This document shows, in pieces, positions 13,139 through 35,823 of a stretch of 36,614 bases of DNA. The notes under the pieces are model-generated. The model worked only from the letters and a program-made list of their open reading frames with translations, was not told the DNA's origin and did no database searches. This DNA comes from Candidatus Coproplasma excrementigallinarum. Its GTDB lineage: Bacteria; Bacillota; Clostridia; Christensenellales; Borkfalkiaceae. Where the stretch lies: assembly GCA_018714625.1 (NCBI GenBank), contig DVNE01000039.1, positions 1 to 36,614 on the forward strand. Reading direction: 5' to 3'. Position 1 is the first letter of the stretch. Each line of letters starts with the position of its first letter. The translations under genes were made by a program, and so were the position numbers.

Positions 13139-13281
13139 ATATCACGCAAAAGAAAGTTAATTGCATTTTTCTATTGATTTTTTTGTGTGTAATGAAAAAA
13201 TTGTGAAAAATGTGAAAATTTTATAAGGCGTCAGGCGCACGACGAGCGTGCGCAATATCAACTTATATGAGGAGGAATAAA

Positions 13282-16200: not shown

Positions 16201-16329
16201 ACGATAAATGTTACTCCCTGGTGGAAGGCTACCCTCACTGCGGTTGAAGTTGTGTTCATCGTTCTCACCGTAGCCGGTGCGGCAGGCTATGTTGCCGTTA
16301 CCCTCAAAAAGAAGAAGGAGGAGGTGTGA
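13282..16329 (+). CDS. membrane-tethered, domain-permuted GH3 glycosidase
   Basis: This predicted 1015-residue family 3 glycosidase has its domains in reversed order. A hydrophobic N-terminal segment (about 13-33) is followed by the GH3 C-type sandwich (GSVLLKNN, LPLANGAKVTLLGN, possible acid/base Glu217 in SSEAADF, SGHLPDTY), a fibronectin III-like domain (YSFGYGLSYTTFE, VEVTNTGDFPAKDVVQVY), then the barrel (LDMQHVQDGPLGFS, NHEYYSEDPML, VAPKHFAFNDQE, nucleophile Asp902 in YIVTDM). A second hydrophobic helix (about 980-1007) and KKKKEEV end the protein. Permuted GH3 enzymes are known from rumen clostridia. Anchors at both ends suggest an exported enzyme held on the outer face. The listed ATG start is really inside the AGGAGG ribosome binding site; the TTG at 13282 fits better. 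Substrate is probably a beta-glycoside. Confidence 0.9.
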   Translation: MKKSTTLHALRGATAVCALLSVVSIGASAIAVAWEPNINEFLGTSSTEQVTSDESNPEELYTYVNEDITNTDDLVAWHKDLAEREQEEGSVLLKNNNETLPLANGAKVTLLGNRAVNSVHGGQIGSSPNSAQNISLADALEQKGFDVNPTTIEAYTAVGKTPGRLSNSFGMVQKVPNGVVVNEPSVSELEAASSNWGASITEYSDAAIVVIGRPSSEAADFYPGEAGLGNPDEFEEGENILGLSINEKAIIDYACEHFEKVIVLVNSDSAMELDYVQNKAEVDSILWVGAVGNYGFLGVADILRGEVSPSGHLPDTYAVDSTSSPAMVNFGLFSFANYADYGGNTDNSKGFAFLDEQEGIYTGYRYYETRYEDAVLGRYNATSVTGSSTGEAWNYDDEVLYSFGYGLSYTTFEQELISVSEKEGMIEVVVEVTNTGDFPAKDVVQVYVQTPYTDYDRQNHVEKSAVQLADFAKTQTLAPSGEEGDSEVVTLSFDKKYITSYDYVNAKTYILDAGDYYLSIGNGAHDALNNILAAKGADVDGDAQKVYTWTQDTLNTTTYATSDSSGEDVAVTNQLDDMNLNYWTDNDMWEGQLSRSDWSGTWPEGYEVSGDIHTTDLVATAAMIKELTNDVYSTEGKDTTPTEWGQDTGLTIGALKGADYDDERWDELLSTITLEEAIEFYVWAQNQTAGMASIGLDMQHVQDGPLGFSYQTLGHFNTNEEGDPAAMEEDDANAGYSVYDSVTEPVLGASFNKELLEEQGRLFGTDSLWTNTAILWAPGLNTHRTPYNGRNHEYYSEDPMLTNYLGAAITSGALEYGLVVAPKHFAFNDQESNRTGVSVFMNEQRAREIELRAFQGAFQDAGCMGTMTAFNRAGMRYASAHEGLITNILKKEWGFTGYIVTDMINGPMYMRADTSLMAGTTCLDTSGNETSIALLEAIKDDPAAQNALKDAMHSNLWVLANSNALNGVDSLTKTINVTPWWKATLTAVEVVFIVLTVAGAAGYVAVTLKKKKEEV

Positions 16330-19550: not shown

Positions 19551-19654
19551 GCGGCAATATGCCGCAAATAATCAAAAAAAATGGCGGTTTGCCGCACGGT
19601 AAATTAAAACGTGCGGCAATATGCCTCAAATATATGCTGCGGCGAAATGCCGCA
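19551..19654. repeat. cluster of small GCGGCA/TGCCGC palindromes
   Basis: Four near-palindromes fill the gap before the GtrA-like gene: GCGGCAATATGCCGC (19551-19565), GGCGGTTTGCCGC (19583-19595), GTGCGGCAATATGCC (19611-19625) and TGCGGCGAAATGCCGCA (19638-19654). The first and third are near-identical over 13 bases. The last ends at the ribosome binding site AAGGAAG. They resemble the dispersed GCGGYATATGTGCC units. Confidence 0.5.
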
Positions 19655-19664
19655 AGGAAGTAAA

Positions 19665-20795
19665 ATGGAAGAACAAACATCTGCCGAAGAAAGTCTGCTT
19701 TCGCCCAAGCCGCTCTCGCAAAACGCCTTTAAGGCATTCTGGCAAAAAATATGGCGTTGGTGGCAGGGCGTGTGGTACGGCTTTTCTGAAAGGCGCCCCA
19801 AGATTGCCGCATGGCTCTATAAAATTGCACTCTTTTTTGTATTCAGCGTAAGCGTTACGCTGTTGCAATATATAGGCTTTGTCACCCTGCCCTATCTCTT
19901 CGGGCAGGAGCTTGCAGGTACGGAATTTATGTGGCCGCATTTAAAGCTCACCACGATAGACGGCAACGATATATATTGGAATATCCTCGGCTACAATGTC
20001 AGCTACAACGCGGCAGGCGAGGTGGTGATAGGCGGCGGACTGGGCTATTTTATCGCCTACGAACTCACCGTGTTTATTGCGCAGTGCATAAACTTTCCTC
20101 TGCAAAGGAATATCACCTTCCGCTCCCACGGAAATGTGTGGTGGCAGGCAATGTGGTACTTTTTCGGCTGGATACTCGTTTCGCTCTTCAGCAACGCCAT
20201 AAACGGACTGTGGATACCCTTTGCCGAGCTGTATGTTTCGGGTGCGGTATATAATATTCTGGTAACGGTAGTCACGGGCGGCGTGTCGATGGTGATATAT
20301 TTCTTTATCTTCCTCGTCATATTCCCCGACGCCGACAAGACCGAACGCTCTAAAAAGGCTGCGCTCAGTGCTGCCGAACGCAGAGCGGCACAGGCTCAGG
20401 GTAGCGCGGCGGCATCCAAGGCGCAGGCTGCGCTTGAAAGGGCGCGCGCAGAGTATAATATTGCGCTAGAAAACAAAAAGTTCTTCCACGCTGAAAAGGA
20501 CATATCCTCCGCCGTATCGCTCGCCGAGGCAAAGATAAACGGCTACAACGGAATGCTCAAAAAGCTTACAAAAACAAGGTCTGCGCTTGCTGACGCGGAG
20601 AATGCAGGCAATGCCGAAAAGACTGCGGCTCTTAATAAAGAGGTTGCTGAGCTTGAGGCCGCCGTTGGCAAGGCGAGGGCGCAGGCGCTCGAGGCCGCCC
20701 GCCGCAGAGAGGAGATACTTCCTCCCAATCAGGCAATACTTGAAGAGATAAAGGCGGCCCGTGCCGCCCGTAAGGCTGCAAAAAATAAGGCGTAA
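19665..20795 (+). CDS. GtrA-like membrane protein with long coiled C-terminal tail
   Basis: This predicted 376-residue protein has about four membrane segments (53-78, 123-142, 160-182, 196-220). It contains INFPLQRNITFRS, resembling the NF-x-x-x-R-x-x-TF signature of GtrA-like proteins, which are linked to moving undecaprenyl-linked sugars or anchoring glycan enzymes. A polar loop (about 80-120) interrupts the first helical pair. The last 155 residues are an Ala/Glu/Lys-rich, probably coiled-coil cytosolic tail; ordinary GtrA proteins are only 120-160 residues in total. The start is the ATG at 19665 with AAGGAAG upstream; the listed ORF begins earlier inside palindromic repeats. It lies between GH2 and the galactose genes without obvious partner. 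The GtrA assignment is a resemblance, not certain. Confidence 0.65.
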   Translation: MEEQTSAEESLLSPKPLSQNAFKAFWQKIWRWWQGVWYGFSERRPKIAAWLYKIALFFVFSVSVTLLQYIGFVTLPYLFGQELAGTEFMWPHLKLTTIDGNDIYWNILGYNVSYNAAGEVVIGGGLGYFIAYELTVFIAQCINFPLQRNITFRSHGNVWWQAMWYFFGWILVSLFSNAINGLWIPFAELYVSGAVYNILVTVVTGGVSMVIYFFIFLVIFPDADKTERSKKAALSAAERRAAQAQGSAAASKAQAALERARAEYNIALENKKFFHAEKDISSAVSLAEAKINGYNGMLKKLTKTRSALADAENAGNAEKTAALNKEVAELEAAVGKARAQALEAARRREEILPPNQAILEEIKAARAARKAAKNKA

Positions 20796-20812
20796 AGGGC
20801 TTCCCCTGAATA

Positions 20813-20909
20813 CGGCCGCCAGAGTATGTACATTCTCGATAAATATGGTCTCCATAAATACGGCCGCCCTGATTAGGGCCGCCAGAGTACGGCCGCAGAA
20901 ATTCGGCCG
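20813..20909. repeat. CGGCCG-rich repeat cluster before galT
   Basis: CGGCCG occurs at 20813, 20861, 20890 and 20904, and the 13-mer GGCCGCCAGAGTA occurs at 20814-20826 and 20877-20889. GGCCGCCCT and AGGGCCGCC (20862-20884) can form a stem with one C-C mismatch. The last two CGGCCG copies can pair with each other ahead of a T-rich run (20916-20921). The function is unknown; an upstream terminator or leader element is possible. Confidence 0.5.
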
Positions 20910-20970
20910 CAAAAATTTTTTATATCCCAAATCTTTAAATAAAAGTTTGAAATAAAGAAGGTGTTTTTGC

Positions 20971-22431
20971 ATGAATAATTTAAGTGCTGTCATAGATAAA
21001 CTCACCTCATATGCGCGCAAAAACCTCGGCCTTGCGCAGGAGGACGAAATCTGCGTCCGCAACTCGCTGCTCGATATTCTCGGTTCTCCCGCATATACCT
21101 ATACTGGTGAGGAGTGCAGCGACGTTTCCCCCGACGCCCTGCTCGGAGAGCTGTTCGCCGTATGCGAGAGAGAGGGCATCTTCACCGCGTATGAGCGCGA
21201 AGAGTACGCCGACAAGGTGATGGGCGCGCTTTCGCTCCGTCCCTCGGCCGTGCGAAAAGAGTTCGCACAGAGGCTTTCAGAAAATTCAAAGTCTGCAACC
21301 GACTGGTTCTATTCGTACTGCGTAAAGTGCGACTATGTGAAAAAGAGCAAACTCGATAAAAATCCCCGCTTTGATGAAAACGGGCTTGTAATAACTATAA
21401 ACATGGCCAAGCCGGAGTTCCGCGACCCCAAAAAGGCGGCAAGCGGCAACTCTGTGGCGGGCGGCTATCCCAAGTGCGCCATCTGCCGCGAAAACGAGGG
21501 CTGCCCCGTGCGCAACAAGCGTACGCTGCGCACCGTCGATTTGCTGCTTGACGGCGAAAAGTGGTTCTGGCAGTACTCGCCCTACGGCTACTTCTACCAG
21601 CACGGCATTGCCGTCAACTGCGAACACACCCCGATGCACGTCGATAAAAGCACCTTTTTAAAGCTGTGCGACTTTGTGGATATTTTCCCGCACTACTTCA
21701 TAGGCTGCAACGCACCCCTTCCCCGAATAGGCGGCAGCGTGCTCGCTCACGACCATTTCCAGGGCGGCGGCGAAATTTTGCCCATGCACAGAGCCAAGGC
21801 GTATAAAACGCTCGGCCGCAAGGGTTTTGACGGCACTGTTGAAGTGCTCGACTGGCCCGGCACGGTCATAAGGGTGGTAAGCGCTGACCGCGCCGCTCTT
21901 GCAGACGTATGCGAAGAGGTGCGCGCAAAGTGGGTTAAATACAGAGACGACGCCCTCGGCATCATACCCGAGGACGAGCATGGCATACATAACGCCGTAA
22001 GCCCCACCGTTGTAAAGACGGAGCGCGGCTACGAAATGAGCCTTATTCTGCGCAGCAACGTCACAAGCGAAAAGTATCCCGACGGCGTATTCCACGCCCA
22101 TCCCGAATTCCACTCCATAAAAAAGGAGTCCATAGGCCTTATCGAGGCGCAGGGACTGTTCATTCTGCCCGGCAGACTGCACGACCAGCTAAAGCAGATG
22201 GAGGGACTTTTGGAGAACGGAGGGGCGCTTCAGGGCGAGCTTGAACAGTTTGCCTTTGTGTTCGGGGAGATGAAGGCGCTCTACAATAAAGATAAGGCTG
22301 CGGGTGCAGGCGCCGCCGTCCGCCGCGAACTCGGTTCGGTATGTTCGCGCATACTCGAAAACACCGCCGTATTCAAGGATAAGGCGGTTACGGTAAAATT
22401 TGCAGAGGAGTTAGGGTTTAAGGTACTATGA
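20971..22431 (+). CDS. galT: class II galactose-1-phosphate uridylyltransferase
   Basis: This predicted 486-residue enzyme exchanges UMP between UDP-glucose and galactose-1-phosphate in the Leloir pathway. The long form, the N-terminal region rich in short helices (NNLSAVIDKLTSYA) and the active-site region LAHDHFQGGGEILPM (His260, His262, Gln264) match the GalT type found in Gram-positive bacteria rather than the shorter HPH-type enzyme. Other conserved-looking stretches are PKCAICRENEGCPVR, with a possible Cys pair, and YFIGCNAPLPRIGGS. AAGGTG lies before the ATG. The stop overlaps the galK start as ATGA, so the two genes are coupled. The CGGCCG repeat cluster lies in the leader. No promoter could be identified with confidence. 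Confidence 0.95.
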   Translation: MNNLSAVIDKLTSYARKNLGLAQEDEICVRNSLLDILGSPAYTYTGEECSDVSPDALLGELFAVCEREGIFTAYEREEYADKVMGALSLRPSAVRKEFAQRLSENSKSATDWFYSYCVKCDYVKKSKLDKNPRFDENGLVITINMAKPEFRDPKKAASGNSVAGGYPKCAICRENEGCPVRNKRTLRTVDLLLDGEKWFWQYSPYGYFYQHGIAVNCEHTPMHVDKSTFLKLCDFVDIFPHYFIGCNAPLPRIGGSVLAHDHFQGGGEILPMHRAKAYKTLGRKGFDGTVEVLDWPGTVIRVVSADRAALADVCEEVRAKWVKYRDDALGIIPEDEHGIHNAVSPTVVKTERGYEMSLILRSNVTSEKYPDGVFHAHPEFHSIKKESIGLIEAQGLFILPGRLHDQLKQMEGLLENGGALQGELEQFAFVFGEMKALYNKDKAAGAGAAVRRELGSVCSRILENTAVFKDKAVTVKFAEELGFKVL

Positions 22432-23552
22432 CAGAAGAAAGGGAATATGAATACAAGGTTTCGGCATCGGGACGCGTCAATATCATAGGCGAGCACATAG
22501 ATTACTGCGGCGGCAAAGTTCTGCCTGCGGCGCTCACCTTAAAAAATACGGTATATATCCGCCCCAACGGCACGGATAAAATAAATTTGAGCTGGACGAC
22601 CCTTCCCGATAAGGTCACGCTGGACATCTCCTCGCTTGCCGATTACAAGGGGCTCAAGTACGGCAACTACCAGGCGGGCAGCGTCTATCTCTGGCAAAAA
22701 GCTGGGCACAAAATTGTAGGCTGCGACATGGTTCAGGATTGCAAAGTGCCCTTCGGCAGCGGTCTTTCGTCCTCGGCCGCGATAGAGGTCTCCACGATTG
22801 CCGCGCTCGCAACCGTTGCGGGCGAAAAGTTCGATAATGTAGAGGTCGCCCTCACCGCCCAGGCGGCTGAAAGGGAGTATGCGGGCGTCAACTGCGGTAT
22901 AATGGACCAGTACGCCTCGGCGTGCGGCAAAAAGGGCATGGCAATGCTTCTGGACTGCAACACGCTCGACTGCTCATATATCCCTTTGGAGCTTGGCGAC
23001 TACGCCCTCGTCATAACCGACTGCAAAAAGCCGCACAGCCTTGTGGAGAGCAAGTATAACGAGCGCAGGGCGGAGACGGAGAAGGCGTTTGCCATTCTCA
23101 GAGAGGTGCTTCCCGTATCCTGCCTTGCAGACGTCACGCCCGAACAGTTTGTTAAGTTTTCTCACCTGCTGCCGGGGGTGCTCAAACAGCGCACCGAGCA
23201 CGTGGTGTATGAAGCGTACAGAGTAAAGCTTGCGGCGGATGCGCTGCGCAGCGGCGATATTTTAACGCTCGGCAAGCTGCTCAACCAGTCGCACGCCTCG
23301 CTTAAAAACCTCTATGAGACTACGGGTTTCGAGCCCGACGTGCTTGTCGAGACGGCTCAGAGACATCCTGCCTGCATAGGCGCGCGTCTGACGGGCGGCG
23401 GCTTCGGCGGCTGCGCAATTTCGCTCGTGCAAAAGGACGGCGTGGCCGACTTTGAAAAGTATCTTTTAAAGGTCTACGGCGAGAGGACGGGCTTCAACGC
23501 CGTCTGCTACAACGCGGGCATATCCGACGGCATCACTGTGGAAAAAATCTAA
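22428..23552 (+). CDS. galK: galactokinase
   Basis: This predicted 374-residue cytosolic GHMP kinase phosphorylates alpha-D-galactose at C1 with ATP. Motif 1 is GRVNIIGEHIDYCGG (15-29), close to the canonical galactokinase signature but with Ile for Thr and Cys for Asn. Motif 2 is PFGSGLSSSAAIE (108-120), with catalytic Asp160 in GIMDQYAS. Motif 3 is LTGGGFGGCAI near residue 325. The length is typical. The ATG overlaps the galT stop by four bases. With galT and galM it forms a three-gene Leloir operon. The two motif 1 changes might alter sugar preference but are not obviously disabling. Confidence 0.95.
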   Translation: MTEEREYEYKVSASGRVNIIGEHIDYCGGKVLPAALTLKNTVYIRPNGTDKINLSWTTLPDKVTLDISSLADYKGLKYGNYQAGSVYLWQKAGHKIVGCDMVQDCKVPFGSGLSSSAAIEVSTIAALATVAGEKFDNVEVALTAQAAEREYAGVNCGIMDQYASACGKKGMAMLLDCNTLDCSYIPLELGDYALVITDCKKPHSLVESKYNERRAETEKAFAILREVLPVSCLADVTPEQFVKFSHLLPGVLKQRTEHVVYEAYRVKLAADALRSGDILTLGKLLNQSHASLKNLYETTGFEPDVLVETAQRHPACIGARLTGGGFGGCAISLVQKDGVADFEKYLLKVYGERTGFNAVCYNAGISDGITVEKI

Positions 23553-23574
23553 TAATTATATCGGATAAAAAATT

Positions 23575-24597
23575 ATGAAAAAAATATCTTTCGGAAAATT
23601 CAACGGGCGCGAAGCCTATATCTATCAGCTCGAAACGGAATATTTCAAGGCTGGCATAGCCGACCTCGGCGCATCGCTGCAGTATGTAAAGGTAAAGTGC
23701 GGCAATAAATGGACGGACATCTGCCCCGGCTTTGACAACGCGCAGAAGTATATAGACAGCAGCTCTTACCTCGGCGCAACGGTAGGCAGGGTGGCAAACC
23801 GCATAAAGGGCGGTTCGTTCGTGCTGGAGGGCAAGCGCTATACTCTCCCCCAGAACGACGGCACAAACTGCCACCACGGCGGGCCTTTGGGGTACGATAA
23901 AAAGTTCTTTATAGCTAATCCGTGCGGCAATATGCTTGAATTAACGCTGTTCAGTCCCGATGGCGATATGGGTTTCCCGGGCGACCTCAGCCTCAAAGTG
24001 CAGTACATTGCCGATGGTCATTCGCTCATTATAAACTACTTTGCAATGAGCGATAAAACCACGCTCTGGGCGCCCACCTGCCACACCTATTTCAACCTCG
24101 AGGGCGTGCGCGGCGACGCCTCGCTCAAGGGCAATATGCTCAGAATTTACTCTAAAAGCTATACGCCGATAGGCGAGGGGATGGTACCCACGGGCGAAAT
24201 TGCCTCGGTTGTCGGCACGCCGTTCGATTTCAGCGACAAGTTCAGGGGTATAACCGAAAGAATAGGCGAAAATAACGCCCAGCTCGCGCTTGCGGGCGGG
24301 TACGACCATAACTACGTGCTGGAAGGCGAGCACGCAGCCAGCGCCTACGGCAGGGACAGCGGCATAGCGCTCGATATATATACCGATATGCCCGGCCTGC
24401 AGTTATACAGCGGAAATTTCCTCGGCGGGAATGCGGCCTGCGGCGTATTGCAGCCCCGTTCGGCATTCGCGCTCGAGGCACAGTTCTTCCCCAATTCGGC
24501 CAACATTCCGTCATTCCCTCAGCCCGTACTGCATGCCGGCGAGCATAAGCAGTACTATATCCGCTACGAGTTCGGCTGCAAGGAGCAGGAAAAGTAA
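23575..24597 (+). CDS. galM: galactose mutarotase (aldose 1-epimerase)
   Basis: This predicted 340-residue enzyme interconverts the alpha and beta anomers of galactose, supplying galactokinase with the alpha form. Key residues are His101 in NCHHGG, catalytic acid His170 in PTCHTYFNLEG, Asp244 in GGYDHNYVL, and catalytic base Glu301 in ALEAQFFPNSAN. The length matches the family. It follows galK by 22 bases and has only a weak ribosome binding site (CGGATAAA). It completes the galT-galK-galM operon. UDP-galactose 4-epimerase (galE), needed to close the cycle, is not in the window. Confidence 0.94.
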   Translation: MKKISFGKFNGREAYIYQLETEYFKAGIADLGASLQYVKVKCGNKWTDICPGFDNAQKYIDSSSYLGATVGRVANRIKGGSFVLEGKRYTLPQNDGTNCHHGGPLGYDKKFFIANPCGNMLELTLFSPDGDMGFPGDLSLKVQYIADGHSLIINYFAMSDKTTLWAPTCHTYFNLEGVRGDASLKGNMLRIYSKSYTPIGEGMVPTGEIASVVGTPFDFSDKFRGITERIGENNAQLALAGGYDHNYVLEGEHAASAYGRDSGIALDIYTDMPGLQLYSGNFLGGNAACGVLQPRSAFALEAQFFPNSANIPSFPQPVLHAGEHKQYYIRYEFGCKEQEK

Positions 24598-24746
24598 AGT
24601 TTTTTAGGCCGCATATGCGCCTGCAAATGCTGTTCAATCGCTGATATGTGCGGCTGAATACAGTTTTAGGGCGGGCATTGCCTGCACGGCTTCTAAGCAA
24701 TCTGACGCGGCTTAATTGCGATTTTGAGCGGCTGACAAAAAAATTA

Positions 24747-24781
24747 CACCGCCGCAGGGCTGCGGCGGTGCGGTATTTTTT
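24747..24781 (+). terminator. terminator after the gal operon, abutting the next start codon
   Basis: CACCGCCGCAG and CTGCGGCGGTG form a long stem with a very short loop, followed by CGGTATTTTTT. The T-run ends immediately before the ATG of the next gene, occupying the place where its ribosome binding site should be. The rest of the 24598-24746 gap contains two loose copies of the GCATATGCGCC-type repeat (near 24608 and 24642). Confidence 0.75.
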
Positions 24782-25792
24782 ATGAATATTCTTGTAACGG
24801 GCGGGGCGGGCTTTATAGGCAGCAATTTTGTAAATTATATGCTCGCCGAATACCCCGAACACCGCATAATATGCTTTGATAAACTCACATATGCGGGCAA
24901 TCTTTCCAACCTTGCGGCGGCGTTTTCAAATCCGCGTTTTTGCTTTGTAAAGGGCGATATCTGCGATACCGTGGCGGTAGAGGAGGTGTTTAAGCGTTAC
25001 TCTCCGCAAATTGTGGTCAATTTTGCCGCCGAAAGTCACGTGGATAACTCCATAAAGAGCCCTGAAGTCTGCATTAAAACAAACGTATGCGGCACACAGA
25101 CGCTGCTGGATGCCTGCGTAAGGCATGGCGTGCGCTTCCATCAGATTTCCACAGACGAGGTGTACGGTGACGCCGCTGACGGGAAATTTGCGCCTTTTTG
25201 CGAGGACGCACCCTTAAGGCCGTCCAGTCCATACTCGGCATCCAAGGCGGCGGCAGACCTGTTGGTCGGGGCATATTGCCGCACCTACGGGCTTTTTGCC
25301 ACAATTACGCGCTGTTCTAACAACTACGGCCCGTACCAGTTTCCTGAAAAATTCATACCGCGCGCCATAACCTGCGCGTTAGCCGACAGCCCCGTGCCGG
25401 TCTACGGCAGCGGTCAGAATGTGCGCGACTGGCTGGCGGTGGAGGATAACTGCAGGGCAATCTGCCTTGTGCTCTGGCGGGGAGAACGCGGCGGTATATA
25501 CAATGTGGGCGGAGGTTGCAGTCTTGCAAATACCGAGCTTGCAAAAAAGATACTCACCCTTCTCGGCAAGCCTCTCTCTCTTGTCAGTTTCGTGCAGGAC
25601 AGACCGGGGCACGACGTGCGCTATTCCATAAATTCTTCAAAACTGCGTGCGCTTGGCTGGCAGCCTCGCGTGCCGTTTGAGGAGGGCATTGCCCGTACTG
25701 TTGCCTGGTACAAAGATAATGCCGCGTGGCTTGGTCTGATTTCAAGCGGAAAGTACCGCAAGCTTTCGCCTGAAGATTTTACCCGCGGCTGA
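24782..25792 (+). CDS. rfbB: dTDP-glucose 4,6-dehydratase
   Basis: This predicted 336-residue extended short-chain dehydrogenase should convert dTDP-glucose to dTDP-4-keto-6-deoxyglucose, the second step toward dTDP-rhamnose and other deoxysugars. It has the NAD-binding VTGGAGFIGSN, the active-site ISTDEVYGD (Thr124, Asp125, Glu126), YSASKAAAD (Tyr151, Lys155), and the RfbB-type stretch RCSNNYGPYQFPEKFIP; these distinguish it from GalE. QDRPGHDVRYSI near the C-terminus is also typical. The start is fixed by the fold (MNILVTGG), yet no Shine-Dalgarno sequence precedes it because a terminator hairpin sits there. The usual rfbA, rfbC and rfbD partners are absent nearby. A role in cell-surface polysaccharide is likely. 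Confidence 0.92.
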   Translation: MNILVTGGAGFIGSNFVNYMLAEYPEHRIICFDKLTYAGNLSNLAAAFSNPRFCFVKGDICDTVAVEEVFKRYSPQIVVNFAAESHVDNSIKSPEVCIKTNVCGTQTLLDACVRHGVRFHQISTDEVYGDAADGKFAPFCEDAPLRPSSPYSASKAAADLLVGAYCRTYGLFATITRCSNNYGPYQFPEKFIPRAITCALADSPVPVYGSGQNVRDWLAVEDNCRAICLVLWRGERGGIYNVGGGCSLANTELAKKILTLLGKPLSLVSFVQDRPGHDVRYSINSSKLRALGWQPRVPFEEGIARTVAWYKDNAAWLGLISSGKYRKLSPEDFTRG

Positions 25793-27226: not shown

Positions 27227-29683
27227 ATGAACAAAAGAATGAAGATCGCAACCCTGGCGGTTGCAGCCGTAATGGTTTCTTCCGTAGCATTGTTCGCAGC
27301 GGGCTGCGGTAAGAAGACAGAAGATACCGGCAGCTATACCTATCGTGAAGCCACAACATCCCTTCCCACAAACTGGAACCCTCATTCGTGGGAGTCCAAT
27401 ACAGACGGCGCTCTGATGGCGTACGTTACTTCGCCCCTCGTTGATATGTCTATCCTCAACTCTGAAGAAAAAACATATCAGTGGGTATACGAAATGGCTA
27501 CCTCGGTAAAGGATGTTACTGCGGCAAACCAGACCGACCTTACAAAGTATGGCGTTACTCTCCCTGCAGGCCAGACGGCTTCCAATACCACTTCCGGCTA
27601 TGTATTCGAAATTGAACTGCGCGAGGGTGCGGCTTGGGAGAACGGCGAGGCTATCACAGCTGACGACTATGTATATTCTATGCAGCAGCTTGTCGATCCC
27701 GAGATGCTCAACTACCGTGCAAACCTGTATATAGCCAATGAATCGGAACTTGCAGGTGCATATAACTATTACTATTCCCTTCAGACGGAGATTTTCACCG
27801 CAGTTGCCGATCTTGGTGACTACGAAAGCATGGAGGCCGCTGTTGAAGACGGCTTGGATGTAGTTATCGATATGTGGAATTTGTGGGGTCTTCAGGGTGC
27901 GCTTGACGCAGACGGTAACGAGTGCCCTCAGTATGTATCTATAAGCAATACCACCAAATATCGTGACCCTGCAGTTGCAGAGGGTGAAGAGGGTGACTGG
28001 ATTTCGGCGTCTGAAATTTATGCTCAGAATGCAGGAATGCTTACCGTGGGCAGCGAATACGACGGCGTGTATATAGGTGTTATCGTCGAGAACGATAATA
28101 CCGATACCACCTGGGATAACGTAGGTTTCTACAAGGTAGACGACTATACCGTCCGCTATGTAACCCAGTCCTATGTTGACCTGAATACATTTATGACCAG
28201 CCTTACCTCTAACTGGCTCGTATACGAGGATCTGTATGAAGAGCTTAAGGAGACAGTTGGCGACCTTGTTGTTACCACTTACGGCACCAGCAAGGAAACT
28301 ACTATGTCTTACGGCCCCTACAAGATTGACTCCATCGATACCGGCAGGCAGATGAAGTTCTCGCAGAACGCAAACTGGTACGGATGGGACAGGGATGAGG
28401 ATGGCAAAATAGTGACCGACGATTACGGCAACTATGTTTCCACCACTGAGTTCCTTGTTGACGGCGAACATGTTCGCCAGTATATGACGACTAACATCCA
28501 GATAGACGTTATGACCGAAGATACGCAGGAGCTTGCGTTCTTCAGGGGCGAACTTACCACCTGGAATCCTCCCGCAGACCAGCTTGGCGACTATGCAATG
28601 AGCGACTATCTGTATCAGGAGGACGAGACTTACACCCTGAGCCTCTTCTTCAATACAGACCTTGACGCGCTTAAGGCTATGGACAAGGCAGGCACAAACA
28701 CCAACGGCGTTGTCGTTTCCAACTATAACTTCCGCAAAGCTATGAGCCTTGCTATAGACAGGTCAGCATTCTGCGAAGCAAGCCCCGGCTACAAGCCCGC
28801 TTATTCGCTTATGAACGAGCAGTATTACTACGATATTTACAACGACCCCAACTCTGTTTACAGATACAGCGAGCCCGCAATGCAGGCTATATGCAACCTT
28901 TACGGCGTTGAATACGGCGAAGGAACTCCTTATGCAACGCTTGAAGACGCTTACAACTCAATAACAGGCTATAATGCAACCGAGGCACACGATTTGCTTG
29001 CTAAGGCGTGCGACGAGCTTGTGGCAGCCGGTCTTTATACAAAAGGACAGCCCATCAACATCTCCATCGCCTGGTCGCAGGGTACTCTCGGTTCTGACGA
29101 CTATGCTCAGATTGCCGTTCTCAATCAAAATATCAATGCGGCTGCAAAGGATACAGGCTTCGGCACCATAACGTTTACGGCTGTAGGAAATATGCAGTCT
29201 CCTAATCCCTATGATGCAGTTCCTCAGGGCGTCTACGCAATAGGCTGCGGCGCATGGGGCGGCGCATTTCTCTATCCTTTCCGTAACTTCCAGGTATACA
29301 TGGACCCCGACCAGTACTCCATCAATGAGGCTGCTTGCTGGGATCCTACCACCGAAATGCTTACTCTCACCATCGGCGGAGAGGAAGTAACGATGACATG
29401 GCAGGCATGGTCGAACAGTATTTCTGGTTCGGGCGTATACGCACAGGCGAGCAACGAAGTTAAGCTTGAAATCACCGCTCAGCTCGAAGAGGCATACCTC
29501 AATCTTTACTACCGCATACCTATCTGCAATACGGTACTTTCCTATCTTCTCAGCCAGCAGTGCAGCTACTATACAGAGAATTACCACGTTCTCTACGGCT
29601 TCGGCGGACTTCGTCTTATGACCTATAACTACACCGATACCGAGTGGTTTGCTGCCATCGACGCAGGTGAAATTGAATACTGA
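27227..29683 (+). CDS. oppA: oligopeptide-binding lipoprotein (SBP family 5)
   Basis: This predicted 818-residue lipoprotein captures peptides outside the membrane for the ABC importer encoded downstream. It begins with a lysine-containing signal sequence and hydrophobic core, and a lipobox-like FAAGC places lipidated Cys27 at the mature end. Family 5 features include TSLPTNWNPHSW near the start, FEIELREGAAWENGEAITADDYVYS, and NYNFRKAMSLAIDRSAF, the usual second-lobe segment. Most OppA proteins are 540-650 residues, so it is enlarged; extra sequence seems spread between lobes (for example 165-260). GGAGG lies before the ATG. It has a strong promoter and structured leader, and a leaky-looking terminator separates it from the permeases, a common way to make excess binding protein. 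Confidence 0.93.
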   Translation: MNKRMKIATLAVAAVMVSSVALFAAGCGKKTEDTGSYTYREATTSLPTNWNPHSWESNTDGALMAYVTSPLVDMSILNSEEKTYQWVYEMATSVKDVTAANQTDLTKYGVTLPAGQTASNTTSGYVFEIELREGAAWENGEAITADDYVYSMQQLVDPEMLNYRANLYIANESELAGAYNYYYSLQTEIFTAVADLGDYESMEAAVEDGLDVVIDMWNLWGLQGALDADGNECPQYVSISNTTKYRDPAVAEGEEGDWISASEIYAQNAGMLTVGSEYDGVYIGVIVENDNTDTTWDNVGFYKVDDYTVRYVTQSYVDLNTFMTSLTSNWLVYEDLYEELKETVGDLVVTTYGTSKETTMSYGPYKIDSIDTGRQMKFSQNANWYGWDRDEDGKIVTDDYGNYVSTTEFLVDGEHVRQYMTTNIQIDVMTEDTQELAFFRGELTTWNPPADQLGDYAMSDYLYQEDETYTLSLFFNTDLDALKAMDKAGTNTNGVVVSNYNFRKAMSLAIDRSAFCEASPGYKPAYSLMNEQYYYDIYNDPNSVYRYSEPAMQAICNLYGVEYGEGTPYATLEDAYNSITGYNATEAHDLLAKACDELVAAGLYTKGQPINISIAWSQGTLGSDDYAQIAVLNQNINAAAKDTGFGTITFTAVGNMQSPNPYDAVPQGVYAIGCGAWGGAFLYPFRNFQVYMDPDQYSINEAACWDPTTEMLTLTIGGEEVTMTWQAWSNSISGSGVYAQASNEVKLEITAQLEEAYLNLYYRIPICNTVLSYLLSQQCSYYTENYHVLYGFGGLRLMTYNYTDTEWFAAIDAGEIEY

Positions 29684-29824: not shown

Positions 29825-30784
29825 GTGACAAAATACATTATAAAGCGAATCCTTCTTATGCTGTTCACCTTTTTTGTAATAGTAACGATTTGCTTTATGC
29901 TTGTTAGAATGCTGCCGAGGACTTTGCCTACGGATAAAAACCTCGCGGCCATAATGGAGGCACGCTGGGAGGCGCTCGGCTATAACGAGCCGCTTCTCGT
30001 GCAGTACGGCATATATCTCAAGCTGATTTTCACACAGTGGGATTTCGGCACGTCGTGGTATGTCGATCAGCTCGAACCTGCGTGGAATGTCATTGCGGAC
30101 AGAATACTGCCCACGGTGCTTGTAAACCTCTATTCCTTTATAATATCAATACCCATAGGTCTCATTCTCGGCATACTTGCCGCAATTAAAAAGAACAAGT
30201 GGCAGGACCATACCATAAGCACGCTCGTTATGCTCTTCGTATCCATACCGGTGTACGTGTACGCATTCCTCGTGCAGTATTTGTTCTGCTTCCTGCTTGA
30301 CTGGTTCCCCCCTACGGTGAGTTCGCTTACCGACGCGGGCGGAAGCTGGTTCTCTCCTACTATGTTCTGGAGTATGATGCCTGCCGTTATCGCCCTCTCG
30401 TTCGGGCAGATAGCCGGCCTTACCAGGTTCACCAGGGCAGAGCTCACTGAAACGCTCACGTCCGACTATATGCTGCTCGCCCGCACCAAGGGCCTTAAAA
30501 AGAGCCAGGCAATAGTGCGCCACGCGCTCAAGAACGCAATGGTGCCCATACTGCCCATGATAATATCCACTTTTATCTCCATTCTGGGCGGCTCTATGAT
30601 AATCGAGCAGATATTCTCCGTCCCCGGCGTCGGACAGCTCTACATTCAGTCAATCAATCTTCGCGACTACGACGTATTCATGATGGATACCATATTCTAT
30701 ACGCTTGTCGGCCTGCTCGCAGGCATTGTGGTTGATATAAGCTACGGCTTTATCGACCCCAGAATACGAATGGGGGAGAAGTAA
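29825..30784 (+). CDS. oppB: oligopeptide ABC transporter permease OppB
   Basis: This predicted 319-residue inner-membrane permease forms one half of the peptide channel. About six membrane segments are visible, starting with KRILLMLFTFFVIVTICFMLVRMLP, the typical OppB/DppB opening. The EAA-loop that contacts the ATPases is RTKGLKKSQAIVRHALKNAMVPILP. GGSMIIEQIFSVPGVGQLYIQSI is also classic for this family. The length is normal, unlike its partners. The start is GTG with GGAGG upstream. Its stop is followed one base later by oppC, so they are coupled. Confidence 0.95.
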   Translation: MTKYIIKRILLMLFTFFVIVTICFMLVRMLPRTLPTDKNLAAIMEARWEALGYNEPLLVQYGIYLKLIFTQWDFGTSWYVDQLEPAWNVIADRILPTVLVNLYSFIISIPIGLILGILAAIKKNKWQDHTISTLVMLFVSIPVYVYAFLVQYLFCFLLDWFPPTVSSLTDAGGSWFSPTMFWSMMPAVIALSFGQIAGLTRFTRAELTETLTSDYMLLARTKGLKKSQAIVRHALKNAMVPILPMIISTFISILGGSMIIEQIFSVPGVGQLYIQSINLRDYDVFMMDTIFYTLVGLLAGIVVDISYGFIDPRIRMGEK

Positions 30785-30785
30785 T

Positions 30786-32354
30786 ATGGAAGAACTTAAA
30801 AATATCCCCAAGGAAAAATTTGAATTTGCCGACCGCAGCGATATGTCGCACGATAAGAAGTTCGACACAAAGCCGATAGGCTACTTTAAGGATGCCTTTT
30901 TGCGTTTCTGCAAAAACAAGGCCTCAGTCGTGGCGGCAATAATTATCTTTGCCATAATTTTATACGCGATAATTACTCCCCTGTGCGGAATACCTGAATT
31001 TATAGATACTACCTATGCCAAGATGGGTCCTCGCAACCTTGTGCTCAGGGAAATAGGCATTGCCACGGGTGGCTCTTCCGATAACTATAACGAAAGGTAT
31101 ATGATATACCACTATGCGCTCGGAGTTGCCGCAGAGGATGCCGAAGGCACTGGCGCAACCTGGCAGGAGGGTGTTGAGAGCTACTACCAGCCCGTACTCA
31201 GCATGAAGGAAAAGCAGGGCAGGGGCAACAATGTTACTTACGATGCCTCCGTGGACACCTATCTGGACGTCGGTTTCAGATACCGCAGCATTTCTCAGAG
31301 CGAATATAACTCTATCCGCGAGTGGGAGGAGCAGAGCGGCATTAAAGTCCTTTACCCGCTCATTGACGAAAAGAGCGGCTACTATGTTGCGCCTGCCGAC
31401 CAGAATATTACGGCCAACTACTGGTACAAGATGTCCTCAAAGTGGCAGCCCGTCAACGTTGTAAACGGCAAGGCCGAGGAAATTTCCCTTGACGACCTGC
31501 TTTCGGGTGATGCCCAGCTCGAAGACAACTATCTTCGCGACGAAAGCGGCAACCCTGTATATTATCAGTACACGGGCGGCGGCACGTCTGAAACGGCGCA
31601 GTACCGCGTGCGAGTGCTCTATTATAACTACTATGTATATCAGCACGGGTTCGAGCCGCAATATCTGTTCGGCACGGATTCGCAGGGGTACGACCTCTCG
31701 CTCAGAATGGCTCGCGGTGTTCAGCTCAGCTTGCTCATCGCCGTCTGCGTTTCGGTTATCAACCTCGTGCTCGGCGCAATATACGGCGCAATAGAGGGCT
31801 ACTACGGTGGCGCAGTCGACCTTGTGATGGAACGTATAGCTGATATACTTTCGGGCGTACCCTTCATAGTCGTGGCAACGCTCTTCCAGATACATCTGGC
31901 GGCGCAGGTGGGCGCAATACCAAGTCTGCTGTTCGCCTTTGTGCTTACGGGCTGGATAAGTACGGCCGCGCGCACCCGAACGCAGTTCTACCGCTTTAAA
32001 AATTCAGAGTACGTACTCGCTGCGCGCACGCTTGGCGCACGCGACAGACGTATTATCTGGAAGCATATATTCCCCAATTCGCTCGGCACTATAATCACTT
32101 CTTCGATACTCATCATTCCCAGCGTAATATTCTCTGAGAGTATGTTAAGCTTTTTGGGCATAGTAAACTTCGGCAGTTCCACTATGACCTCACTCGGTAC
32201 TTTACTTTCGGACGCGGCAAGCATCTGGACGCGCTACCCTCACCTTATGGTCTTCCCTGCGATAATAATATCGCTGCTGATGATTTGCTTTAACCTGTTC
32301 GGCAACGGTCTGAGGGACGCCTTCAACCCGTCGCTGCGCGGCGTGGAGGAGTAA
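30786..32354 (+). CDS. oppC: OppC permease with large extracytoplasmic insertion
   Basis: This predicted 522-residue permease is about 200 residues longer than ordinary OppC. The N-terminus is cytosolic, with a first membrane segment at about 47-66. Then an extra hydrophilic stretch of about 190-200 residues (roughly 85-285) precedes the conserved LFGTDSQGYDLSLRMARG. It is rich in Tyr and Asn with repeated YY pairs. From about 310 the usual five segments follow, with EAA-loop ARTLGARDRRIIWKHIFPN and the MLSFLGI and GNGLRDAFNPSLRG signatures. The insertion should lie outside the membrane, where it could contact OppA. It starts one base after the oppB stop. Confidence 0.93.
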   Translation: MEELKNIPKEKFEFADRSDMSHDKKFDTKPIGYFKDAFLRFCKNKASVVAAIIIFAIILYAIITPLCGIPEFIDTTYAKMGPRNLVLREIGIATGGSSDNYNERYMIYHYALGVAAEDAEGTGATWQEGVESYYQPVLSMKEKQGRGNNVTYDASVDTYLDVGFRYRSISQSEYNSIREWEEQSGIKVLYPLIDEKSGYYVAPADQNITANYWYKMSSKWQPVNVVNGKAEEISLDDLLSGDAQLEDNYLRDESGNPVYYQYTGGGTSETAQYRVRVLYYNYYVYQHGFEPQYLFGTDSQGYDLSLRMARGVQLSLLIAVCVSVINLVLGAIYGAIEGYYGGAVDLVMERIADILSGVPFIVVATLFQIHLAAQVGAIPSLLFAFVLTGWISTAARTRTQFYRFKNSEYVLAARTLGARDRRIIWKHIFPNSLGTIITSSILIIPSVIFSESMLSFLGIVNFGSSTMTSLGTLLSDAASIWTRYPHLMVFPAIIISLLMICFNLFGNGLRDAFNPSLRGVEE

Positions 32355-32357
32355 GCC

Positions 32358-34571
32358 ATGGCAGATAATATCTTACAGGTAAAAAATCTCAAAATTTCCT
32401 TCCGCACGGTAAGCGGTACGGTAAAGGCCGTAAGGGACATATCCTTCAACTTAAAGCGCGGCGAAACGCTCTCCATAGTGGGCGAGTCGGGCTCGGGCAA
32501 GTCGGTTACCTCCAAGGCCATCCTCGGCATACTTGCGGGCAACTCAATCATAGAGGGCGGCGAAATTCTGTACGACGGCAAGGACCTTCTGCGCATAAGC
32601 GAAGATGATATGCACAAAATCCGCGGCGACAAAATTTCCATGATATTCCAGGACCCGCTCTCCAGCCTCGACCCTATTGTCAAGATAGGCAAGCAGATAA
32701 CCGAGGCAATGCTCCTTAAAAACAAGGCCAACCGCAGGGCGGGCAGAAGGGAATTCAACGCCATGCTCGCCGAGCTTAAAAAGCATATGGAGGCGGCCGC
32801 CGGCGATGAGAAGAAGCAGGAAATCGAACAGCTTGTAAAAACTTTCGACAGCTTCAATATAGAGGCGCTAAAGCTCGAGGGCGCGTACAACGCCGCCCGT
32901 TCGGACGCGGAGGAGCTGATTGCAAATATAGACGACTTCCTGTTCCGCGTAAGCCACAAGCAGAAGTTTGATTTGCGCGGCAAGCTGCTCTCATTCAGCA
33001 AAAAGCTTGCCAGCGTCCACAACGAGTTCCTGACTTACGGCTATGAAGAGCGCCTTCTGGGCGAAGCGACAAAGCTCAAGGAGCTTGTTCACTCCCTCGG
33101 CGACAGCCTGGAGTTTGCGCGCGCCGCTTTAAGAAACATATTCGGCCGCGAAAAGACGGTAGATGTGCCTGAAGATGTGGTCAAAGAGCTTGAAGAGCTC
33201 AGAAAACTGCTCGAGGAGATAGTTTCCAAGGAGCGCCCCAACTTCTTCAGAATAGGGTATTGCAAGCTTGCAGGCCAGGATATATCCCTCAACGGCAGAA
33301 CGATCGAACAGCTCAACAGCGACGCGCTCGAGTACCTCGATAACAACTTTATGAAGGAGTTTCTGCTGCTCGCAGGCAGGGGCGTTGCTCATTCGTTCAA
33401 CCTTGCGCTCGAGGGCAAGAAGGCGGTAGTTGCAAATGCGCAGCGCATGCGTGACTTCTTCTCTGCCGATTTCGATAAGAAGGGCGCAGCCGTCAACACA
33501 AAAGAGCTCATCGAGCTTGTGGAGAAGTCGATAGACAGGCTCGAGCCTATAAAGGACAGCCTTGCCTATACCTTCCGCTCAAGCTTCAGAAATGCGGTAT
33601 CACGCTATTTTTACTATAAAAAGAACAACCCCAAGGAGGAGGCGCGCTTTGCTCGGCAGACCCGCCGCAGAGATGCGCTCATAGCAAGGGGCAGAAAGGT
33701 GGACTGGAAGGTAGTTCCCAAGGTGGTTATGGACCTCGGGGACGAGCGCGCCAACATTCTTTCGGTTATAGACAGACTTGTAAACAAGTACAAAGAGGAC
33801 ATTGCGGCGGCAGACGGCGTAAACTTTGACGATAAGTGCTATAAACTTGTAGACTTCTTCAAGGACAAGGCCTCGCAGGTGGTGTACCGCGTAACCAAGC
33901 GCATGGCGCGCGAAAAGGCCATAAAGCTTATGGAGGAGGTCGGCATACCCGAGCCGAGAATACGCTACAATCAGTACCCCTTTGAATTTTCGGGCGGTAT
34001 GCGCCAGCGTATAGTAATAGCCATCGCGCTTGCGGCCAATCCCGATATACTCATATGCGACGAGCCTACCACTGCGCTCGACGTTACCATTCAGGCGCAG
34101 ATTCTCGAGCTTATAAACAAACTCAAGGCTGAGCGCAACCTTTCGGTAATATTCATAACGCACGATCTGGGCGTTGTTGCCAACATGGCGGATAAAATAG
34201 CCGTCATGTACGCCGGCAAGATAGTGGAGTACGGCACTGCGGACGACGTGTTCTACAATCCCCGTCATCCCTACACGTGGGCGCTGCTCTCGTCCATGCC
34301 CGACCTCGACACCAACGAAAAGCTGGACGCCATTCCCGGAACGCCGCCCAATATGATATATCCGCCCAAGGGCGACGCGTTTGCCGAAAGAAACAAGTAT
34401 GCTCTTAAAATAGACTTCGAGCAGCAGCCTCCTATGTTCAAAATAAGCGATACACACTATGCGGCAACGTGGTTGCTTCACCCGGACGCGCCTGAAGTAC
34501 CCATACCCAAGGCCATTACAGACCGCATTGCCCGCATGAAAAAACTGACAGGTGGCGAAGATGGAAAATAA
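32358..34571 (+). CDS. oppD: OppD/AmiE-type ATPase with a roughly 390-residue insertion
   Basis: This predicted 737-residue ATPase powers the importer. Walker A is GESGSGKS (42-49), Q-loop Gln98 in [10 protein letters not shown], signature FSGGMRQR (544-551), Walker B LICDEP ending near 570, and switch His602 in THDLG. Between Q-loop and signature there are about 445 residues instead of the usual 55 or so, an insertion spanning about 122-512. It is highly charged and mostly helical with several coiled-coil-like stretches and no recognised motif. Ordinary OppD is 330-360 residues. The C-terminal region ([33 protein letters not shown]) matches the streptococcal AmiE/OppD type and lacks the four cysteines of Fe-S-containing DppD proteins. 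GGAGGAG precedes the ATG. It overlaps oppF. Confidence 0.93.
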
Positions 34572-35823
34572 TAACGAAGTTTTGCTCAAGGTAGAACATC
34601 TCTGCCAGTATTTCAAAATGGGGCGCAAGGAGCTTAAGGCCGTAGACGACGTCAGTTTCGATATAAAAAAGGGCGAGGTGTTCGGCCTCGTCGGCGAATC
34701 GGGCTGCGGCAAGACGACCACCGGCCGCTCTATAATCAAACTTTACGATATAACTTCAGGCAATATATATTTCAAGGGTCAGCGCATATGCGCAGGCACG
34801 CGCTCCTACCGTGACGAAATCTCCGCCGCACGTAAAAAGTTCCGCCTGACGGAGAAGGAGCTTAAGGCGCAGCTTAACGCGCATCCGGACGAAGCCGACC
34901 GCGTCAACGCTATTCTTGCCGAAAAACGCAGGGAGCTTGACGAGGTGATAGCGCACAACAATGCCGAGATAGTTTCGGCAAAGCGCGACCACAAGTATTG
35001 CGACAAGGAGTATGCCGACGGGCTCTTAAAAAAGCTCGAAGAGGAGTATGCCCCGAAGTTTGCGGCAGCCGCAGGCAACGAGGAGGAACTTAAAAAGCTC
35101 AAAAAGGAATACGCTGAAAAACGCTCTGTCGCGCGCAAGACAAAGCTTATAACGCGCATACAGATGATTTTCCAGGACCCCATCGCCTCGCTCAACCCCC
35201 GAATGACGGTGCGCGAAATCGTATCTGAAGGGCTTGTTATAAACGGCATTAAGGACAAGAAGTATATTGACGACAAGGTGTACGAGATGCTCGAACTTGT
35301 CGGCCTCGTGCGCGAACACGCGGGCAGATATCCCCACGAATTTTCGGGCGGACAGCGCCAGCGTATAGGCATTGCGCGCTCGGTAATAATGAACCCCGAC
35401 ATGATAATCGCCGACGAGCCCATCTCCGCGCTCGACGTGTCCATTCAGGCTCAGGTTATCAACCTTCTCAACGACCTGCGCGAAAAACTCGGGCTCACCA
35501 TTCTGTTCATTGCGCACGACCTCTCCGTCGTCAAGTATTTTTCAGACAGAATAGGCGTAATGTACTTCGGCAAGATGGTGGAGCTTGCCCCTTCAGACGA
35601 AATTTTCGCACATCCGCTCCACCCGTACACCCGTTCGCTGCTCTCGGCCATACCACTGCCCGACCCGCACTACGAAAAGCAGCGCACGCGTATAACCTAC
35701 AACCCCATTGCAGAGCACGATTACTCGGTTGATAAACCCTCTTTAAGAGAGATATATCCCGGTCACTTCGTATATTGCAACGACGCCGAAGAGAAGAAGT
35801 ATAAGGAACAGCTCGGCTTATAA
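34561..35823 (+). CDS. oppF: OppF/AmiF-type ATPase with a charged helical insertion
   Basis: This predicted 420-residue second ATPase of the importer has Walker A GESGCGKT (45-52), Q-loop Gln205 in FQDPIASLNP, signature FSGGQRQR (261-268), Walker B IIADEP and switch His319 in AHDLS. About 110 extra residues (80-195), rich in Lys and Glu and probably coiled coil, lie between Walker A and the Q-loop. This differs from the site of the OppD insertion. Ordinary OppF is about 300-330 residues. The C-terminus (SLREIYPGHFVYCND) resembles AmiF. The ATG at 34561, with AGGTGG just upstream, is preferred over the GTG at 34552; it overlaps oppD by 11 bases. Confidence 0.93.
   Translation: MENNNEVLLKVEHLCQYFKMGRKELKAVDDVSFDIKKGEVFGLVGESGCGKTTTGRSIIKLYDITSGNIYFKGQRICAGTRSYRDEISAARKKFRLTEKELKAQLNAHPDEADRVNAILAEKRRELDEVIAHNNAEIVSAKRDHKYCDKEYADGLLKKLEEEYAPKFAAAAGNEEELKKLKKEYAEKRSVARKTKLITRIQMIFQDPIASLNPRMTVREIVSEGLVINGIKDKKYIDDKVYEMLELVGLVREHAGRYPHEFSGGQRQRIGIARSVIMNPDMIIADEPISALDVSIQAQVINLLNDLREKLGLTILFIAHDLSVVKYFSDRIGVMYFGKMVELAPSDEIFAHPLHPYTRSLLSAIPLPDPHYEKQRTRITYNPIAEHDYSVDKPSLREIYPGHFVYCNDAEEKKYKEQLGL

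Follow-up and report, generated by a model that had tools for sequence, protein, structure and literature searches.

A conserved insert in the OppD ATPase of a putative enlarged Opp importer subclass of Clostridia

The operon and its closest described relatives

The helical subdomain of ABC ATPases contacts the membrane subunits of the transporter, and its size is normally tightly held. In the SMC, Rad50, and ABC-F ATPases, a helical element in the helical lobe, located between Q-loop and signature, is used as a lever or arm. OppD and DppD of Escherichia coli (PDB 8z21, 8z1v) share with the OppD described here the motifs of Opp/Dpp nucleotide-binding domains (NBDs), the oligo_HPY region and, in the case of Dpp, the glutamate residue of helix alpha-3 that contacts the permease, but they have no insert between alpha-3 and alpha-4, and the four cysteines that ligate the [4Fe-4S] clusters of DppD and DppF are missing in the OppD described here. 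By sequence, the best match among the solved structures was OppABCD of Mycobacterium tuberculosis (Rv1280c-Rv1283c; PDB 8j5q; E 2e-118), which differs by the fusion of its two NBDs in one chain, by an Fe-S domain, and again by the absence of an alpha-3/alpha-4 insert. OppD proteins of the Mollicute type (NF043079, MMSYN1_0167) are likewise enlarged and belong to a cysteine-free Opp group.

The window, which is the whole analyzed stretch of 36,614 nucleotides from Candidatus Coproplasma excrementigallinarum, contained an oppA-B-C-D-F operon, and this gene order was also present in the surveyed loci where the operon was complete. All five genes were on the plus strand and open under translation table 11, without an internal stop in the oppD frame. 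Table 11 is also the code of the genome, which belongs to a Clostridia relative and not to a Mollicute. The features of the operon were as follows.

27227-29683, plus strand: oppA, binding protein, 818 aa, enlarged; hydrophobic N-terminal segment and then GC, resembling a lipoprotein signal
29825-30784, plus strand: oppB, permease, 319 aa, normal size
30786-32354, plus strand: oppC, permease, 522 aa
30984-31724, plus strand: enlarged segment of OppC, aa 67-313, between hydrophobic segments 1 and 2
32358-34571, plus strand: oppD, ATPase with insert, 737 aa, Pfam ABC_tran and oligo_HPY
32481-32504, plus strand: OppD Walker A GESGSGKS, aa 42-49
32649-32651, plus strand: OppD Q-loop Gln98; Walker A-Q spacing of 56 in 108/108 insert-bearing OppDs
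32703-32705, plus strand: OppD Glu116; Glu in 108/108, aligned with E. coli DppD Glu114
32721-33893, plus strand: OppD insert, aa 122-512, in the alpha-3/alpha-4 loop of the NBD helical subdomain
33987-34010, plus strand: OppD ABC signature FSGGMRQR, aa 544-551
34047-34064, plus strand: OppD Walker B ILICDE, aa 564-569; found in 108/108
34161-34163, plus strand: OppD switch His602; H-loop in 108/108
34552-35823, plus strand: oppF, ATPase, 423 aa; its start overlaps the end of oppD
34783-35151, plus strand: OppF region aa 78-200 with the OppF insert, between Walker A and Q-loop

The ABC ATPase motifs were intact in all 108 insert-bearing OppDs. By these motifs and the oligo_HPY C-terminal region (Pfam matches PF00005, E 1.6e-27, and PF08352, E 1.7e-14), the window OppD is a predicted ATPase of the Opp/Dpp peptide importers. 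Cysteines for a [4Fe-4S] cluster as in E. coli DppD were not present; the C-terminal region had no cysteine in 105 of the 108 proteins and a single one in the other 3. Most of the insert-free OppD relatives also lacked these residues, so the idea that the insert stands in for a lost Fe-S assembly domain was not supported. The cluster is not universal, since it is also absent from M. tuberculosis DppD (PMC12136057). C-terminal tails extended some OppDs to 795 to 917 aa (L011, L061, L062, L063, L068, L069, L074, and L076); that of L011 was acidic and of low complexity.

The original prediction had noted that Mollicute Opp ATPases are also enlarged. Kinship with the Mollicute OppD was not borne out: the Mollicute insert occupies another site, its bearers form a separate clade, and the two inserts gave an hhalign probability of 0.2%. 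Model NF043079 contains ~225 extra positions between Walker A and Q-loop. The window OppD reached 464 bits against it, below the curated cut-off of 740, although this was still its best NCBIfam score, while the clostridial Mollicute-type OppDs L125 and L126 matched the model along their own length with 691 and 710 bits. Together with L128, L140, and L149, these two formed a clade of their own (support 100/98). In these five, an OppD insert of ~240 aa was positioned before the Q-loop, and OppB was enlarged to 523-539 aa. Because the Mollicute-type OppD is enlarged before the Q-loop, the wider Opp group gained unrelated insertions at another site.

Size, conservation, and predicted fold of the OppD insert

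About 445 residues had been predicted between Gln98 and FSGGMRQR, with all motifs intact in one frame; the measured distance was 446 residues, and the limits of the insert at aa 122 and 512 were correct. The same distance was 59 residues in the nearest insert-free OppD, L120, so the net insertion comprised ~387 aa. A gap of this size could in principle result from an assembly error, a frameshift, or a pseudogene, especially in a genome that is fragmented and 76% complete. The frame was intact, however, an insert with 63% identity occurred in another genome of the genus, and the insert recurred in frame, with a length of 352 to 406 aa, in 91 non-redundant OppDs from a total of 108 loci in independent assemblies made by different groups. 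The probability of an artifact, an objection raised with the prediction itself, is therefore negligible. One carrier, L137/G447, was a single-contig genome of 1.79 Mb, the insert copy of which was divergent (E 1e-11, partial profile match).

From the GTDB genome contigs, 172 candidate stretches encoding relatives were obtained and 80 of them kept; after dereplication, the insert alignment contained 91 sequences. The insert was located inside OppD in all 108 parsable loci. Mean column identity was 43%, and 35 positions were at least 90% identical; the conserved motifs were PNFFxxGYY, KDSxAYTF, and GKxPDWKV. Identity of the window insert to those of seven further genomes was 32 to 36%. In close pairs, the dN/dS ratio of the insert was 0.04-0.21, compared to at most 0.06 for the OppD core, so that the insert is under purifying selection and evolves faster than the core. 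A plain self-comparison of the insert gave no sign of an internal repeat, yielding the full-length match alone.

The insert was present in 33 of 200 sampled genomes of the order of the window and in 7 of 391 genomes of the class sample, which included the window's own genome, i.e., in 6 of 390 others. A phylum sample of 300 genomes gave, beyond the window, one match of 70 residues (E 6e-4), which is probably due to chance, and thus no convincing match among 299 genomes. The insert is confined to Clostridia and limited to one OppD clade; it is not a common part of ordinary OppDs, the finding that would have spoken against a special variant. Its distribution was patchy, because most genomes of the genus of the window were without it. 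The named carriers were mostly metagenome-assembled genomes (MAGs) from the guts of ruminants, deer, horse, rabbit, and chicken. L057, titled Acholeplasmatales, and L059, titled Gammaproteobacteria, hold the clostridial operon and are probably binning or naming errors.

No match to the insert was found in the plasmids searched or in PHROGs. Two GenBank records from human feces, L157 (MT837479.1) and L158 (MT837253.1), are labeled Bacteriophage sp. and carry the insert. The matched open reading frames in both were opp genes of the same family, so that these records probably represent bacterial DNA in virome data, and carriage by phages was rejected.

In a model of full-length OppD, the NBD was poor (mean pLDDT 68), and a fold search with this model returned NBD matches only; the insert was therefore folded again alone. 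AlphaFold2 predicted from the 91 sequences a domain of 13 helices (pLDDT 95.6, pTM 0.86). This model, a content of 33% K/R/D/E, and the position in the helical subdomain agree with the predicted charged, mostly helical segment without a recognized domain. The window insert matched no Pfam or NCBIfam family above the curated cut-off, Pfam searches over the 91 inserts gave scattered weak matches only, and the matches from a sequence search of the PDB were exclusively coiled-coil-like. Foldseek returned as best match a CHAD domain among 350,542 PDB chains (E 0.18, probability 0.25) and a value of E 0.078 among viral models. As far as the predicted model goes, the fold thus appears to be without a relative in the PDB or among viral models, but Foldseek performs weakly on helical arrays, and to call it a “new fold” would be premature.

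The position between Q-loop and signature, where SMC and Rad50 also have their helical insertions, is a feature shared with these proteins. They and the ABC-F ATPases are, however, not transporters, whereas the OppD insert is a predicted compact 13-helix domain in an Opp operon. A long antiparallel coiled coil with a hinge or zinc hook was absent from the compact model, and no such match occurred among the 350,542 PDB chains. In the open-access literature searched, no description of the OppD insert was found; within this scope, the original claim that a known machine occurs here in an undescribed form holds.

Enlargement of OppA, OppC, OppD, and OppF

A tree was calculated from the OppD ATPase core after removal of the insert and contained 39 insert-bearing rows, all of which were on one side of a single branch with a support of 99/93. 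The insert was gained once, and no loss within the insert clade was visible in the sampled core tree. L120 was the sister (99/95), followed by L139 and L147 with fused NBDs. The operon of L120 encodes an OppA of 616, an OppC of 383, an OppD of 352, and an OppF of 321 aa and is without OppD and OppF inserts. Since L139 and L147 have an OppA of 664-669 aa and an OppC of 375-387 aa, a moderate enlargement of OppA and OppC may predate the inserts.

Inside the insert clade, all complete OppA proteins had 803-953 aa (76/76) and all complete OppC proteins 500-582 aa (88/88), while OppB was mostly 316-384 aa in size and not enlarged. Of the 89 complete oppF genes, 88 encoded a Walker A-Q spacing of at least 79. 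The remaining one was L071 (7342-8856, plus strand), where one open reading frame of a public MAG joins two different oppF genes across a run of unknown bases, which indicates an assembly chimera; its second half still contained the OppF insert. The OppD insert is thus always accompanied by an enlarged OppF, OppC, and OppA, and the enlarged OppD is one part of a remodeled machine. These data identify a conserved and, in the literature covered, undescribed accessory domain, which is predicted to be folded and apparently obligate in a distinct, enlarged Opp importer subclass of Clostridia.

By standard OppC topology, the enlarged segment of OppC should be extracytoplasmic. A possible model for the enlarged OppC and OppA may be the MalF-P2 loop of the maltose importer, a large extracytoplasmic permease loop (~180 aa) in contact with the binding protein, although MalF-P2 belongs to another permease and has another position.

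The spacing between Walker A and Q-loop was 160 in the window OppF, compared to ~52 in insert-free relatives. That the OppD and OppF inserts are copies of one domain was ruled out by an hhalign probability of 0.3%. Seven OppFs of the insert clade, from five genomes (G029, G014, L061, L074, and L075), had a spacing of ~300 residues, and their hydropathy profiles contained two strong hydrophobic segments around ~90 residues within the ATPase domain. The oppF genes with two predicted transmembrane helices in the insert were located as follows.

L011, 9545-11275: oppF with two predicted transmembrane helices
L016, 8946-10649: the same (L078 and L098 represent the genomes of L011 and L016 again)
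L061, 10346-12028: the same
L074, 10239-11921: the same
L075, 9850-11568: the same

These helices in five genomes suggest that the membrane is within reach of at least the OppF insert. An OppF ATPase domain with predicted transmembrane helices is unusual in itself and represents the most unusual side finding of this study.

An insertion that lacks a function of its own may have been tolerated and then retained because the protein now folds around it. In the wider Opp group, unrelated inserts entered the ATPases at different positions, for example in the Mollicute-like type, which indicates that the ATPase fold tolerates insertion, and the faster evolution of the insert compared to the core would fit. 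The narrow length range of 352-406 aa, the 35 highly conserved positions, and the dN/dS ratios well under 1 argue against such neutral accretion, as do the strict co-occurrence with three other enlargements and the lack of a loss in the sampled tree, leaving it a very small probability.

Candidate functions of the insert

Some six residues downstream of Glu116, the insert departs from helix alpha-3, at a site that was conserved in 108/108 OppDs. Residues 9-316 of L120 OppD align with residues 3-310 of E. coli DppD, which assigns Glu116 to position 114 of DppD, assuming that there are no compensating gaps. DppD Glu114 forms a salt bridge with Lys243 of DppB (PMC12136057). Simulations of MalFGK2E indicated an ATP-driven change in the helical subdomain that is relayed via the coupling helices (PMC3150292). 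Because the domain departs from a helix that contacts the permease, the favored reading is that of a brace or gate in cis on the coupling between ATPase and permease, to which we would assign a chance somewhat short of even. The insert domain would work within the transporter and move together with the helical subdomain, which would shift upon ATP binding and drive the coupling helices. It might thereby brace or gate NBD closure at the OppD-OppB interface in a transporter rebuilt around a larger receptor module of OppA and OppC.

Co-variation was evaluated from residual distances after regressing out the cores, so that part of the signal of shared ancestry may persist. No residual co-variation was found between the OppD insert and the OppF insert (r 0.02, p 0.41), the OppC loop (r 0.00), or OppA (r 0.07, p 0.14). 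A tight direct contact of the insert with any of these three, including a clasp formed by the OppD and OppF inserts, is therefore unsupported. The OppC loop and OppA remained correlated (r 0.17, p 0.002, with shared ancestry not fully removed), which is in line with a possible extracytoplasmic contact.

Alternatively, the domain may be a docking platform in trans, which recruits a cytosolic peptidase, a regulator, or another protein encoded elsewhere for hand-over of peptides or regulation of uptake. The motifs PNFFxxGYY, KDSxAYTF, and GKxPDWKV are among the best conserved parts of the insert and include loop residues, which would suit a binding surface, and an open reading frame resembling PmbA/TldD, identified by eye only, was near the operon in 8 loci. 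No gene beside the operon was conserved, any neighbor being present in at most 8 of the 108 loci, which disfavors a partner encoded with the operon; the predicted docking of such a regulator or peptidase has so far found no support. A partner alone would also leave unexplained why the extracytoplasmic OppC segment and OppA were enlarged on the same branch. Docking in trans is thus unlikely, although it retains an appreciable chance.

MalK and MetN have C-terminal regulatory domains and provide a model for an autoregulatory insert, which would hold the NBDs apart and sense the peptide pool or a ligand in the cytosol. That the domain is globular, sits on the helical subdomain that moves (PMC3150292), and has loop motifs with conserved polar and aromatic residues agrees with such a function; however, the insert was not similar to any ligand-binding domain, in sequence or fold, and this explanation is improbable.

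The OppD and OppF inserts may also surround the cytoplasmic channel entrance or rest on the bilayer, forming a vestibule for long peptides. The two predicted transmembrane helices in the OppF inserts of five genomes and the enlarged OppA and OppC would be compatible with this. The OppD inserts, in contrast, were without a hydrophobic segment (0/108) and near neutral, and the two inserts did not co-vary, so that a vestibule has a low probability. For docking to the membrane, which the original prediction had considered, a mechanism through charge likewise found no support at a mean net charge of +1.3.

A further-reaching reading would be a separate Opp class of gut Clostridia with four of five subunits enlarged together. 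An OppD domain of an unseen all-helical fold would then gate ATP hydrolysis where OppD meets the permease, restricting the firing of the pump to a particular class of large peptides that the larger OppA and OppC hold. This extended version is speculative and, taken as a whole, doubtful. A domain of 390 residues, grafted onto the helical subdomain in a single gain and selected alongside three other enlarged subunits, represents a natural experiment in which the sister operon of L120 is directly comparable with the insert-bearing operons. It bears on the coupling of ATP hydrolysis to the docking of the binding protein and concerns a nutrient importer of common, mostly uncultured bacteria of animal guts.

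Upstream of the operon, the window encodes on the plus strand a GH3 protein with reversed domain order (13267-16329), in which the C-terminal domain and an Fn3-like domain come first and the N-terminal domain last. A galactose pathway stretch (19611-25792, plus strand) follows GH3 and GH2 glycosidases and contains genes for GalT-like, galactokinase, aldose epimerase, and GalE-type epimerase proteins; its first open reading frame (19611-20795, 394 aa) had no Pfam match.
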